Shown here piece by piece: positions 20,400 through 59,941 of a DNA stretch of 64,000 nt; position 1 is the first letter of the stretch, and every line of letters starts with the position of its first letter. The stretch is taken from NCBI RefSeq assembly GCF_024298825.1, contig NZ_CP101153.1, positions 2,294,001 to 2,358,000 on the forward strand, read 5' to 3'. A model generated the notes under the pieces. It had not been told where the DNA came from, did no database searches, and saw nothing but the letters and a program-made list of their open reading frames with translations. The translations under genes were made by a program, and so were the position numbers. The DNA comes from Haloglomus salinum. GTDB lineage: Archaea; Halobacteriota; Halobacteria; Halobacteriales; Haloarculaceae.

Positions 20400-20747
20400 G
20401 ACTCAGTATGGTTTCCACTCGAACGCACAGCGACGACGGACAACGGCGGAGCCTCGGAAGCCCTCGCGCTCTCGACTCGCGCGCCTCGCTGCGCGCTTCG
20501 GCCTCGCTTCGCGCTTCGGCCTCGCTTCGCTCGGCCTGCAGTGCTTGCGTCGTCCTCAGAATCGAAGATTCTGCTGGGCTGCGGGAGAGCGAAGCTCTCC
20601 CGAACGGCGTGCTTCGTCGAGAGGATTGTCGGCTCCGCCGACAATCTATTAGCTGGCGGCTTCGCCGCCAGCCGCGCTCGCCCTTCCAGTCCGCCAGGAC
20701 ATCGCCTGTCACACCGAGCGACGCTACTTGCTGGAGAGGTGCGTGCC
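20400..20747. other. Repeat-filled gap inside the lysine gene cluster
   Basis: This 348-bp gap between dapD and lysA is almost entirely filled by dispersed element copy 4. Its presence may separate expression of dapABD from lysA-dapFE or reflect insertion into an operon. A purine-rich patch (ctggagaggt) lies 8-17 nt before the lysA ATG and could assist ribosome binding. Confidence 0.6.
20456..20700 (+). repeat. Dispersed intergenic element, copy 4 (hairpin-rich)
   Basis: Begins ggaagccctcgcgctctcg, continues through a Ser/Arg-like run (cgcttcggcctcgcttcgcg, repeated), then tgcagtgcttgcgtcgtcct, and four near-perfect hairpins at 20557-20573 (cagaatc/gattctg), 20583-20601 (gggagag/ctctccc), 20624-20646 and 20652-20672. 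It ends cgcccttccagtccgcc. The first two hairpins form the shared module also seen at 40.0 and 57.9-58.0 kb. Confidence 0.75.
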
Positions 20748-29138: not shown

Positions 29139-29624
29139 ACCACACCGGATGGGAGAGACACGGATAGTGGGTTTGGTACGGTGGGTTAATCGAGTGGTAG
29201 AGGACTCAGAACGCACTTTAGGACGATTTATCGGGCTACCAGATTACCAACGGGACCCCTCGCGGCGCGGTGGTTGGTACGACAGAGAAACTGTCGACGA
29301 TACGGTGCTGTCATGTAGTGGCTGCATACGCGCGAGCAGGGCGGGACTCCGTCCCGCTTGCAGTCGGACGTAGTCCGACGACGAAGCGAGCGCGTTTGGG
29401 TTCGAGACGGCTTCGCCGTCTCGTCCTCCCGAAAATCTCCGATTTTCGGAGACACCAGCCCGAGCGACCGGAGGGAGCGAGGGCTGGCATTTTTTCTGAA
29501 TGTTTTTTGGCGTCATCAGAACGCGAAGCGTTCTGATTGCCCGTGGAATCGCTCCGCGATTCCACGACGGCGAGCGGTGGCCGGAGGCCACCCGAGCCGT
29601 CAAAAAAGCTCGCGGTGAAGAAGC
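29139..29624. other. Gene-free region between a small wHTH gene and PAN
   Basis: About 485 bp. The right 300 bp is the hairpin element 29334-29607. The left part is a promoter-like region for the 28878-29138 gene. Open frames here are palindrome artefacts. Confidence 0.6.
29334..29607. repeat. Hairpin-array element downstream of PAN
   Basis: A run of short near-perfect hairpins: 29403-29423, 29429-29449, a longer one at 29455-29487 (ccagccc/gggctgg) followed by T6, a second T6 at 29503-29508, then 29516-29536 (tcagaacg/cgttctga), 29543-29565 (gtggaatcg/cgattccac) and 29576-29592. A T6 on the minus strand follows the PAN stop within about 20 nt. The pair of T-tracts around ctgaatg matches a pair at 57946-57962. 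Confidence 0.75.
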
Positions 29625-39800: not shown

Positions 39801-40140
39801 CATCAGGCTGGTTCCGAGAACAGGAAGCGCGCGAGCGCCCACCACCGAGACCGCGACCGGGGGGAGCGTGTCGAGGCAATCGGCGCTCGCGCGGGGAGGT
39901 GTGGGGACCCCGCACTCCGCTGGAACCGCCACACGCGAAGCCCGGTGCAACCAGCAACAGGGCGGGACTGAAAGGGGCCGGGCGCTCGGCGGTTCCCCGG
40001 CGTTCGGGAGAGCGAAGCTCTCCCGCAGCCCATCAGAAATCTCCGATTTCTGAGGACGACGCAAGGACCGCAGCGAGCGAACGAAGTGAGCGACCGAGGA
40101 CCGTGGCGAGCCGCGGGACCCCGAGCGGCCGGGGGCTTTC
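39801..40140 (-). repeat. Dispersed intergenic element, copy 5
   Basis: Read on the minus strand it runs gaaagcccccggccgctcgg, a cgctgcggtccttgcgtcgt block, the two-hairpin module (40034-40052 and 40006-40024), cccctttcagtcccgccctg, cggttccagcgg, cacctccccgcgc and ctcggaaccagcctg. Blocks and order match copy 1 at 14986-15306, which lacks the hairpin module. Confidence 0.78.
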
Positions 40141-40298
40141 AGCGGCCATTGGTCTCCGTCCGATGGCTGCCCCCGTGCGGCACCGTCCCTCGCGCCAACG
40201 TTCCGAAGCCCTTAGAAGCCCGAACCGAGAAGATAGCTCCAACTCGTCGGTCGCGGGCACCGACGGGCACCTGCTACGGCAGGATGGAATGTGGCCAG

Positions 40299-56676: not shown

Positions 56677-57120
56677 ATGAGCGACGGGGACGTCGAGGCG
56701 GACGGAGATGCCGAGAGCGACGGGGGGCTCTCGGCCGAGGGCGACTTCATGCTCATCTTCGGGCTCTCGGCGGCAGTCGTCACCGGACTCTACGCCCTCG
56801 GCGGCGGCCTCCCGACGGCCCTCCTCCTGGGCACCATCGCGTCGGTCGCCTCGCTGGGCGCCGTCGTCGCCGACCTCACCCGCCCCGACTTCCGCCCCTC
56901 GACCGGCCTCCACAGCCTCATCACGCTGTCGGCCGCTGCCGGCGCGCTCGTCGCGTACGTCTACAGCAACGCCCTCCTCACCGCGACCGGCCTCGGCGTC
57001 GTGGCCATCGCCAACGCCGGCCGCGTCTTCGAGGTCGACTTCCGCGACGAGGACTCGCTGCTCGACCCGCTGGAGGAGGAGGAGGAGGACGCGGATTCCG
57101 AGAGCCGAGAGGCCGAATAA
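56677..57120 (+). CDS. Three- to four-helix membrane protein with acidic ends
   Basis: A 147-residue protein: an acidic N-terminus (MSDGDVEADGDAESDG), four hydrophobic helices between about 24 and 120, and a Glu/Asp-rich tail (LEEEEEDADSESREAE). No motif is recognised. Its stop is followed by a strongly AT-rich stretch (57121-57190) that can act as a transcription terminator. Confidence 0.7.
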   Translation: MSDGDVEADGDAESDGGLSAEGDFMLIFGLSAAVVTGLYALGGGLPTALLLGTIASVASLGAVVADLTRPDFRPSTGLHSLITLSAAAGALVAYVYSNALLTATGLGVVAIANAGRVFEVDFRDEDSLLDPLEEEEEDADSESREAE

Positions 57121-57190
57121 CCAATAAATTATAAATTTTGGCTGATTATTCTACGTATAATATACAAATTACGATTCATCAGATATTATG
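57121..57190. other. AT-rich island after 56677-57120
   Basis: About 70 bp of mostly A/T (ataaattataaattttggc, attattctacgtataatata) in a genome that is otherwise GC-rich. It lies between convergent genes, so it most likely serves as a terminator region; a cryptic promoter is also possible. Confidence 0.45.
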
Positions 57191-57218
57191 CGCACGGGAG
57201 GGAACCGAACTGCACACG

Positions 57219-57659
57219 TCAGGACGGGGCAGCTTCGGCTGCTGGTCCCCGCACACGCCGCTCGACGAGTCCGCTACCGACTGCCAACCCGAGCACCACC
57301 GGCCAGCCGACCAGGTAGATGTCGAACGGAGTTCCGGGGAGTAGCGTGACCGACTGCCGGAGAAGCACCCACATCCGGTAGACGGCGACGGCGAACGCCG
57401 TAAAAACGACCAGCGACGGCGTCGCGAGTCGGTATCGGACGGCGGAGACGGCTACCACCGCGCCGACGACGAACGCCCCGCCGAACGCGTAGACGAGCCA
57501 CGGGCCGACCTGGACGGTGAACAGCCCCGCCGCCAGCCCGTCGAATCCACCGTAGACGAGGAACCACGTCGTCAGGAGTAGCGACACGTACAGCACCCCG
57601 CCGGTCGCGGCCAGCCGCTCGTTCCCCCGCAAGCCGCGCAACAGGCCTGATTTACTCAT
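57219..57659 (-). CDS. Four-helix membrane protein, unknown function
   Basis: A 146-residue hydrophobic protein with about four membrane helices starting near residues 20, 45, 70 and 110. MSKSGLLRGLRGNERLAA gives a basic start (positive inside). No recognised domain. Start at 57659; the frame is open upstream but runs into repeat DNA. It follows the rpo genes on the same strand after the hairpin element, and is not part of the normal rpo operon. Confidence 0.65.
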   Translation of the reverse strand: MSKSGLLRGLRGNERLAATGGVLYVSLLLTTWFLVYGGFDGLAAGLFTVQVGPWLVYAFGGAFVVGAVVAVSAVRYRLATPSLVVFTAFAVAVYRMWVLLRQSVTLLPGTPFDIYLVGWPVVLGLAVGSGLVERRVRGPAAEAAPS

Positions 57660-58090
57660 GGGCGCGTGAACGAGACTAGCAGAACGCACTGGGGTAGCTC
57701 TTGGGTCGAAATCCAGCGGCTGGTTACGCGGGGAGCGGGAACCGACTCCCTGTGAAGACGGACCCGTTGCTCCCGTGCGAGGAGCCACTGCGGTTCACTC
57801 CCTGTATACCGCGCCGCAGGCGCGGTTTCACTCCTCCGAGACGAGTGTCCTGCTGCTCGGAAGAGCGTAGCTCTTCCGTACCCATCAGAAATCGAAGATT
57901 TCTGAGGATGGCCGCAGGCCAGCAGGTCCGAGTCGAGGAGGAGCCTTTTTTGAACGTTTTTTGCGCAAGTGGTTCGCGCAGAGCGCCGTTCGGGAGAGCG
58001 GAGCTCTCCCGCAGCCCATCAGAAATCGAAGATTTCTGAGGACGGCGAAGCCGGCGCACAAGCGAACCCGCAGCGGAAAAAAGCTCGAGT
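57660..58090. other. Gene-free region downstream of rpoA2
   Basis: About 430 bp, mainly occupied by the hairpin-array element at 57825-58083 and followed by an upstream region of the 57219-57659 gene. In other haloarchaea nusA and ribosomal genes S12 and S7 follow rpoA2; none is present here. Confidence 0.6.
57825..58083. repeat. Hairpin-array element downstream of rpoA2
   Basis: Two copies of the two-hairpin module: 57859-57877 with 57886-57904, and 57992-58010 with 58020-58038. Between them T6 tracts at 57946-57962 (ttttttgaacgttttttg) match the pair at 29490-29508. On the minus strand a T6 lies just after the rpoA2 stop (58077-58082 read as A on the plus strand). Confidence 0.78.
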
Positions 58091-59941
58091 TCAGTCGTCG
58101 GCCGGGCCGCCGCTCTCGCCGGTCTGCTTCGCGCCCATCCGCAGGTTGACATCGCCGGTGCCCAGCTTGATGGGCTTGCCGACGATGACGTTCTCCGTGA
58201 CGCCGTTGAGGTCGTCGACCTCGCCGTGGATGGCCGCGTCCAGCAGGTGGTTGACCGTGACCTCGAACGCGGCGCGGGCGAGCACGGACTGCTTGTTGCC
58301 GGAGATGCCGTGCCGGCCGATGGACTCGATGGTGCCGCGGTTCGTCATGATGTCCGCGACCAGCATCAGGTGGCGGATGTTCACGTCGTCGAGGCCCTGC
58401 TCCTCGAGGGTGTTCATCGTCTCCTCGATGATGGCCTCGCGGGCGGCCTCGATGCCGAGTTCCGCGCGGATCTCGTGGATATTGTTACACGTGGTCCGGG
58501 AGGCGTCGACGCCCTCGATCTTGAGCGCGTCGCCGAAGGCACTCCCCTCCGTGTAGAGGACGAACTCCTCCTCGGCGTCGAGTTCCTCGGCGATCTCCTC
58601 GTCGTCGATCTCCTCCTTCCGGATGACGACGCGGGACACCTCGTCGATGCCCTTGAACACGATGTCGCGCAGCTCCTCGACCTGCTGGAGCAGGTCCCGG
58701 TAGGAGGGGTCCTCCGGGCCGAACTCGATGGCCGAGCCGTCCGTGCCGACCATCGTGCTGGTCTCGACGCTGAGCTTCTTCTCGATGGTAGAGGCGATCT
58801 CCTCGACGATCTCGGCGGTTTCGTCGACCGTGGGCCAGCGCTCGTGGAGCGTGTCCTCGTTGAGGTCGATGCGGACGATCATGTCCGCGACGTTCGTCGA
58901 CACGTCACCGAGCGCGAGGATACGCGTGGCCTCGATGCCCCAGACGACCTCGTGAGCGCGCTCGCGGTCGACCGCGTACTCGTCCTCGAGGTGGACCGTC
59001 ATCATCGGCGTGTCCGGGGTCTTCCGGGCGTCCACCAGCTCGATGAGCCGGGGCAGCCCCTGCGTGACGTCAATCTCCGCGACGCCCGCGTAGTGGAAGG
59101 TGTTCATCGTGTTGTGCGTGACGACACCCTCTGCAGTCGTGAACGTCTCCAGCCCCGCGACAGAGAGGTCGTAGACGTACTCGTGGTCGCTGGTGACCGT
59201 CTCGACGGAGTCGATGCGGTCCCAGGCGACATCCGCTGCGATGACGTTCTCAACCGGGGCAGATACGGCCGTACCGCCGTCCGCAGCGACCGTCCGGTCG
59301 AGTGCCGTGGCGTCGATACGGCAACTCTCCGCAACGAAGTCCCCGACAACAGGCAGTTCGTCACCAGCATCCAGCGTTTCGGCATCGACAGGTCGAATCT
59401 CACCGGCCTGCCGCGTGACGAACGAGTGAGCCTTCGTCGCTCGAATCGAGCGGCCGGACTCCAGCTCGAACCGAAGCAGTTCGTCGGGCGTCTCGTGCCG
59501 ACTCACCTCCTCGATAGCCTTCCAGCGCATCCGCTCGTCACGGTCCAGGCTCGGCACCTCGATGCCTTCGGGAGCCAGCGCGACCTCGTGGTCGTCGATG
59601 GACCGCGACTCGCGAGGCTCGACCAGCGAGTCCACGAACGGGCCGATCTCGACCACGTCGGTTTCTCCATCCCGGCGAACGATTACCTCCTCGTCGGCCG
59701 GAACAGACATCTGCGTTCCCGGCTCCCCGATGGACTGCGCGGAGACGGTGCCGACGGGGTCGAGCGGGTCGACGCGCGTCTCGAGGTAGCGCGACTCGAC
59801 CGCCTGGGCGATCTCGTCGACCTTCTCCGTGGGCACGTCGCGGCCCTCGATGGCCTCGTACACCTCCTCCTTGAGCCGCCGCGGAAGCTCGGTGTCCTCG
59901 ACGAGCGCCTCGGCGTCGTCGGAGACGTCGAAATCAGTCAT
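58091..59941 (-). CDS. rpoA2: RNA polymerase subunit A'' with mini-intein
   Basis: A 616-residue precursor; without the intein the mature subunit is 417 residues, normal for archaeal A''. The host reads through [16 protein letters not shown] (residues 63-78) and resumes at [12 protein letters not shown] (278-289), a highly conserved region of the catalytic core. The C-terminal half has [20 protein letters not shown] and a conserved [18 protein letters not shown]. It overlaps rpoA1 by 8 bp. Protein splicing is required to make the functional subunit. Confidence 0.96.
59111..59707 (-). other. Mini-intein within rpoA2 (199 residues)
   Basis: Residues 79-277 of the precursor. It begins with Ser ([17 protein letters not shown]), has block B in [14 protein letters not shown] (Thr and His), block F in [17 protein letters not shown], and ends VVTHN with Thr as the +1 host residue. 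There is no LAGIDADG-type endonuclease domain, so it cannot home by itself. The site lies in GEPGTQM/TMNTFH, a known A'' insertion site. Confidence 0.93.

Follow-up and report, generated by a model that had tools for sequence, protein, structure and literature searches.

We propose that a double-hairpin module carried by Haloglomus salinum is very probably a non-autonomous mobile DNA element, in which a conserved spacer links two inverted C(GNA)G-type triloop hairpins and CGTT and GGACG mark the outer ends. In the window, by which we mean the whole 64,000-nucleotide stretch of DNA that was analysed, the initial annotation had placed four such double hairpins at 20557-20601, 40006-40052, 57859-57904 and 57992-58038; all four were recovered, with coordinates shifted by at most 1 nt. 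In their common orientation they follow the layout CGTT[C GGGAGAGC-nnn-GCTCTCCC G]CAGCCCA[T CAGAAATC-nnn-GATTTCTG A]GGACG, that is CGTT, a 9-bp triloop hairpin, CAGCCCA, a second 9-bp triloop hairpin and GGACG. The right end GGACG is complementary to the left end CGTTC apart from a single G-T pair, and it contains the second copy of the target CG. Beyond those first listed, the window has four related double hairpins, at 20624-20672, 29341-29379, 29403-29449 and 29515-29566. The features of the window are as follows.

20551..20606, minus strand: module copy 1 (CGTTC...GGACG), with an orthologous copy in Haloglomus halophilum (G002)
20624..20672: double hairpin of another type (GATTGTCGGC.../GCTGGCGGC...), adjoining copy 1
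29341..29379: double hairpin (GCGGGAC.../GTCGGAC...)
29403..29449: double hairpin (CGAGACGGC.../CCGAAAATC...), a relative by covariance model (L016, 1389-1444)
29511..29568: sister-family element, CGTC[ATCAGAACGC-GAA-GCGTTCTGAT]TGCC[CGTGGAATCGC-TCC-GCGATTCCACG]ACG (29515-29566 in the list above)
40001..40058, plus strand: module copy 2, intergenic; the orthologous site in H. halophilum is empty, with a single CG
40005..40025, plus strand: hairpin 1 of copy 2, CGGGAGAGC-GAA-GCTCTCCCG, 9 bp, triloop
40026..40032, plus strand: conserved spacer CAGCCCA linking the two hairpins of copy 2
40033..40053, plus strand: hairpin 2 of copy 2, TCAGAAATC-TCC-GATTTCTGA, 9 bp, triloop
40054..40058, plus strand: conserved right end GGACG of copy 2
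57854..57910, plus strand: module copy 3, with decayed ends TGCTC...GGATG and spacer TACCCA, bearing the ggaagag/ctcttcc paired change
57987..58044, plus strand: module copy 4, about 50 nt past the rpoA2 stop

Perfect double hairpins (stem of at least 7, loop of 3-5, gap of 3-14) number 8 in the window, compared with 1 in 20 Markov-shuffled windows pooled (about 0.05 expected), and folding z-scores of the window copies range from -3.2 to -6.0 for DNA and from -3.1 to -5.2 for RNA. The surroundings of these hairpins are themselves repetitive. The sister-family element at 29511 has the CGTC tag on both ends and sits within a T6...A6 flanked composite; in this genus, double hairpins are nested in such larger intergenic composites (TTTTTT...module...AAAAAA) at 29480-29620, 57940-58085, L004, L008 and L011. 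The T6/A6 composite has nested arms (gaacgTTTTTTgcg ... AAAAAAgctcg), is repeated genome-wide and resembles a bidirectional terminator cassette. At 39900-40150, copy 2 is flanked by two other haloarchaeal repeat motifs, GGGACTGAAAGGGGC and ACGCAAGCACCGCAGCGAGCGAACGAAGTGAGC, which also surround modules of other genera (L144, L150, L174, L183).

The family extends well outside this strain. As the initial annotation had suggested, a covariance model of the four window copies was scanned over other genomes, and it finds matches in 37 of 39 (the organism's own genome plus relatives), with a maximum of 123 in one genome. Within the 4.19-Mb genome of H. salinum itself there are 42 matches at E<=0.1, some of which are both strands of one copy. 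Sampling across the phylum gave a match in 21 of 22 Halobacteriales genomes, compared with 4 of 97 others. Weak matches also occur in two genomes outside the order, from a non-halobacterial family: G045 has 15 (best E 3e-7) and G053 has 7 (best E 6e-6), which may represent a distant relative of the double-hairpin family. We also scanned 84,980 bacterial and archaeal species genomes across GTDB with a sequence pattern in which hairpin 1 was left free, and found at least 114 stretches. All 80 of 80 loci among the matches listed are from Halobacteria, and the genera among them include Haloarcula, Haloferax, Natrialba, Natrinema, Halorubrum and Halorussus. The strict pattern has 0 matches in viral contigs, while 24 plasmid records have matches, the named ones being haloarchaeal. 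Given that triloop palindromes are abundant in haloarchaeal intergenic DNA, one could argue that GC-rich hairpins, frequent in these organisms, have arisen by mere chance and form no family. This explanation has practically no probability: it is already refuted by a conserved spacer and conserved ends in more than 130 distinct copies, and the 8 double hairpins of the window also stand against it.

Several lines of comparison indicate that the module moves. In an alignment of the window with its syntenic counterpart in H. halophilum (about 91% identity), copy 2 (40001-40058) is cleanly missing from the relative; the junction reads CCCGG-CG[TTC...GGACG]ACGCAAG in the window and CACGG-CG-ACGCAAG in H. 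halophilum. Copies 3 and 4 lie within a 989-nt stretch beside rpoA2 (57102-58091), in place of which two congeners, G001 and H. halophilum, have 119-140 nt. Among the fetched loci, an empty-site homologue that runs unbroken through the junction exists for 76 of 151 copies, almost always with one CG at that point; independent insertions number about 45-70 rather than 151, as most same-site copies descend from one transposon-borne insertion, and some empty sites could be precise deletions. The neighboring rpoA2 gene (RNA polymerase A'', 58094-59941, minus strand) contains an intein (Pfam Intein_splicing, residues 126-277), and rpoA2 of H. halophilum is about 0.9 kb longer at this position, so that intein size probably varies between the congeners.

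Insertion takes place at CG, after CGRCG, and filled sites show CG at both junctions where the empty site shows one. Over 45 site groups, G is found at position -2 in 76% (35% of control CGs) and a purine at -1 in 82% (50% in control CGs), while the right side of the target carries a weaker NCG. The second CG may be either a 2-bp duplication or a part of the element. Most copies add a net 54-60 bp. The two hairpins move together: a perfect first hairpin lies beside 142 of the 162 right-hand hairpins, and almost all of the remaining 20 adjoin an imperfect one. A search of 1.5 Mb for half-elements standing alone, as traces of an autonomous parent, gave none that was convincing. One reading of these junctions is site-specific recombination with a 2-bp CG crossover, by an IS607-like serine recombinase or a DEDD/IS110-like enzyme rather than an HUH enzyme. 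A 2-bp core predicts a CG common to both element ends and the empty target, which is what we find, and CG is palindromic as well; however, the target preference is unequal between the two sides, and we consider this reading unlikely, if still deserving serious weight.

The module has inserted into both transposons and host genes. Many copies lie inside other mobile elements: IS605-type ends and DDE transposase genes, both assigned by motif recognition, and tnpB genes, assigned by Pfam. For instance, copies at L044, L048, L052, L060 and L009/L039/L042/L045 are within hairpins that resemble IS605 ends; the overall preference for hairpin targets is weak (13% versus 5%). Gene-breaking copies exist, with a net length of 56 nt. 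At one tnpB site, 20 of 20 copies have a net length of 57 or 60 nt despite differing arms, and as these members were gathered by DNA pattern the result is free of selection for spanning open reading frames. An annotated Salinigranum TnpB contains 19 extra residues from the module. We considered whether the module belongs to the TnpB omega RNA and rejected this, given that the module occupies differing places in each element, occurs in unrelated genes and has empty sites.

In-frame copies with Pfam domains on both sides were identified in NadC (quinolinate phosphoribosyltransferase), an AidB-like acyl-CoA dehydrogenase, two histidine kinases, a UvrD/PD-(D/E)XK (UvrD/RecB-like) protein, a MinD/ParA-type ATPase, TnpB and the tryptophan synthase beta chain TrpB. 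The host-gene cases were found via spanning open reading frames, and their multiple-of-three lengths therefore partly reflect the search; a GC3-based coding test (12/143) had too little power. The TrpB insert, VRKT-E-SSAAHQNA-RSED, occurs in two genera (Natrialba hulunbeirensis and Haloferax profundi), and the protein reads GLFHAFRDD[VRKTTESSSAAHQNAERSED]DVAFYGAEG where insert-free relatives have GLF(H/D)AFRDDDVAFYGAEG. In NadC, the segment is missing from 15 other genomes, in which the flanking halves are adjacent or nearly so, and the total insert of about 37 residues exceeds the module. The NadC (L119) and AidB-like (L189) loci also share the flanks GCGAGGCG...CCTCGGATA...GCGAGC, and a larger in-frame composite of about 110-160 nt may move as one in these two genes. 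We propose that in-frame copies survive because lengths of 54, 57 or 60 nt would add 18-20 tolerated residues. An insert spliced out of the RNA is disfavored in coding genes, as the copies examined are multiples of 3 and stop-free and several encode a similar peptide. Separately, twelve modules from different genomes, including L033, L036, L050, L124, L125 and L152, form a cluster with flanks like TTTTTCATGAA|CG|TTTTTGCG, in which a T-run comes directly after the hairpin. It is possible that these modules have been adopted as transcription terminators.

The initial annotation had taken paired stem changes as a sign of selection for structure, in RNA or in cruciform DNA. The four window copies by themselves are thin evidence, with one true paired substitution (G-C to A-T, ggaagag/ctcttcc) and one base pair lost in the second stem, but across the family the paired changes are confirmed. 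Over 134 distinct modules, Watson-Crick pairing reaches 96.3% in hairpin 1 and 97.5% in hairpin 2; exchanging arms between copies at random lowers these values to 63.8% and 82.0%. Up to four pair types occur at single stem positions. Covariation across many copies and occurrence outside this strain, the two tests named by the initial annotation, are thus both borne out. Stem registers were trimmed for maximal pairing before real and shuffled counts alike, and the anchors of the pattern scan lie outside hairpin 1, so the pairing of this hairpin was not built in by the search. Of 268 hairpins, 247 have a 3-nt loop. GNA triplets or the complement TNC predominate among the loops and are closed by C-G. 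C(GNA)G triloops, for example GCGAAGC, are unusually stable as DNA mini-hairpins.

The module structure is conserved as DNA, not RNA, which leaves DNA of the two options first offered; in addition, the family is mobile rather than a fixed regulatory structure. Three observations lead to the DNA-level reading: G-U pairs are not in excess, loops are freely inverted and the two strands are close to equivalent. There are 25 G-T pairs and 20 A-C pairs (p=0.55); A-C is the counterpart of G-U on the other strand, and the lack of a G-T excess therefore argues against selection on the RNA of one strand. Loops of hairpin 2 have no orientation preference (46:39), and those of hairpin 1 prefer GNA (51:17), a hint of strand dependence among copies that are not independent. 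The first-hairpin loop of copy 1 differs between orthologs, GAA in the window against TTC in H. halophilum, with the remainder of the module identical: this hairpin arm has flipped. A structured RNA spread by duplication and selected in transcripts, whether a 3' UTR structure, a processing site or a small RNA, would account for the strong pairing, the thermodynamic stability as RNA and the T-runs that adjoin many intergenic copies. Yet A-C pairs are not exceeded by G-T pairs, loop triplets occur in either orientation and are inverted between orthologs, copies occupy the coding frames of genes such as TrpB and NadC and lie within transposons, Rfam gives no match and empty sites are precise. We therefore regard an RNA of this kind as very unlikely.

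We next compared the DNA element with published families. The initial annotation recognised none, and with respect to Rfam this holds: the sole match in the window is the eL15-Euryarchaeota ribosomal protein leader (RF03144, 40270-40352, plus strand, 38.7 bits), and the nine module loci searched contain nothing. We also found no description of the haloarchaeal double-hairpin family in the open-access literature searched, although an earlier one could still exist. The module is nevertheless close to the dimers of CGTC-tagged REPs (PMC3733652) and, in its habit, to the SMRs of Haloquadratum (PMC3119063).

The CGTC-tagged REPs, as Di Nocera et al. 2013 (PMC3733652) describe them, are short palindromes tagged CGTC (variants TGTC and CCTC) that mostly form inverted head-to-head dimers; they are chiefly intergenic, also occur within genes, notably repair genes, and some dimers lie inside larger palindromes. 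That study places them in five bacterial phyla, does not report them from Archaea and knew of no dedicated transposase in 2013 (PMC3733652). The tag, the inverted-dimer layout and the gene insertions are shared with the module, and so, perhaps, is the missing transposase. Its hairpin-2 unit is CGTCC plus hairpin in nearly all copies, the hairpin-1 unit having CGTT, and the 142 of 162 right units with a perfect left hairpin give the head-to-head dimer. The two differ in stem and loop. According to the same account, REP stems are 8-9 bp with complementary A/T at positions 1-2 (PMC3733652), whereas the module has 9-10 bp with T-A,C-G (hairpin 2) or C-G,variable (hairpin 1) as its first two pairs; the AT-AT stem base is matched by the sister family at 29511 and not by the main family. 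REP loops are given there as 4-5 nt, compared with the triloop of the module (5 nt if the closing C-G is counted), and the REP tail CCA has no exact match. Because two defining features, loop size and stem base, were examined and differ, we do not file the module under CGTC REPs. Precise insertion junctions are seen for the module, and none are described for CGTC REPs in the accessible part of PMC3733652.

Other families share single traits with the module. SMR-A of Haloquadratum walsbyi are, according to Dyall-Smith et al. 2011, mobile inverted-repeat units without a transposase that reach high copy number and target the near-terminal palindromes of IS605-type elements and PATEs; their mobilization is called "enigmatic" (PMC3119063). 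The haloarchaeal host and the near-terminal IS605 palindromes as targets are common to both; by description, SMR-A are about 110 bp compared with 54-60 bp for the module. They are further described there as ending in conspicuous inverted repeats and as causing no duplication of the target, unlike the module with its CG at both junctions and one in the empty site, and in-frame gene insertions, found for the module, receive no mention in the accessible part of PMC3119063. REPINs/BIMEs with RAYT (TnpA-REP) have an inverted hairpin dimer as the mobile unit, a GTAG tag and a linked dedicated Y1 transposase (PMC3116915, PMC2817692); the mobile hairpin dimer is shared, and the tag and linked Y1 transposase are features of REPINs/BIMEs. 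In a second domain of life, the module is in frame in otherwise intact genes as are elements of Rickettsia, a likeness of habit only. Rickettsia palindromic elements (RPE) are palindromic repeats that occur in frame within protein-coding genes and are translated as an extra peptide. They are bacterial, and RPE-1 is longer than the module. RPE-4 and RPE-6 are CGTC REPs according to PMC3733652. By analogy, the module appears to work like bacterial REP dimers and Rickettsia palindromic elements.

How the module is mobilized can be addressed from its target. In IS200/IS605 single-strand transposition, the target and the right cleavage site are related. Since the target GRCG is stronger on one side and resembles the right end GGACG, a Y1-HUH/IS200-type single-strand reaction would fit best. 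Mobilization would require folded hairpins, single-stranded or cruciform, and would proceed in trans through a putative recombinase or transposase that recognises them. In a survey of Y1 transposases, the IS200-type subclass alone was seen in Archaea (PMC6006769). The 30 Y1_Tnp loci scanned contain no transposase or parent transposon with matching ends; modules are concentrated near several of these loci, but inside the ends or tnpB of those elements. A resident Y1_Tnp was rejected as the mobilizer, as it correlates only weakly with module counts (rho 0.37) and is undetected in 16 of 39 genomes, including two rich in modules (G026 with 42 matches and G029 with 34).

A special case of this single-strand reaction is a terminal-only PATE, in which the end hairpins of an IS200/IS605 element are fused, the core is deleted and TnpA still mobilizes the remainder. 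The size is close to that of the 52-bp terminal-only PATEs of Haloquadratum (PMC3119063), the GRCG target motif is similar to the right end and modules cluster near several of the 30 Y1_Tnp loci. However, none of those loci holds an IS605-type element bearing these two ends, modules near tnpA sit in the ends or tnpB of elements with other ends, hairpin 2 is essentially never seen without hairpin 1 and many copies are in genomes without detectable Y1_Tnp. We find this origin rather improbable. Going beyond the non-autonomous element itself, we suggest tentatively, as a possibility well short of an even chance, that one class-wide archaeal family is spread by an unrecognised system that acts on pairs of GNA-triloop DNA hairpins and chooses CGRCG targets, that the same system may explain bacterial CGTC REPs and that some of the 18-20-residue inserts in archaeal enzymes may be host-adopted.

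The haloarchaeal family offers dozens of clean pairs of empty and filled sites, exact junctions, a target motif and tractable hosts (Haloferax, Haloarcula, Natrialba), and together these make the mobilization question testable. A palindromic mobile element that adds about 20 predicted residues to archaeal biosynthetic and DNA-handling genes extends the Rickettsia phenomenon to another domain, and annotation pipelines take in such module-derived inserts silently. If the proposal of a common system is true, the mover of bacterial CGTC REPs, reported as unknown in 2013, may be explained by the same system.
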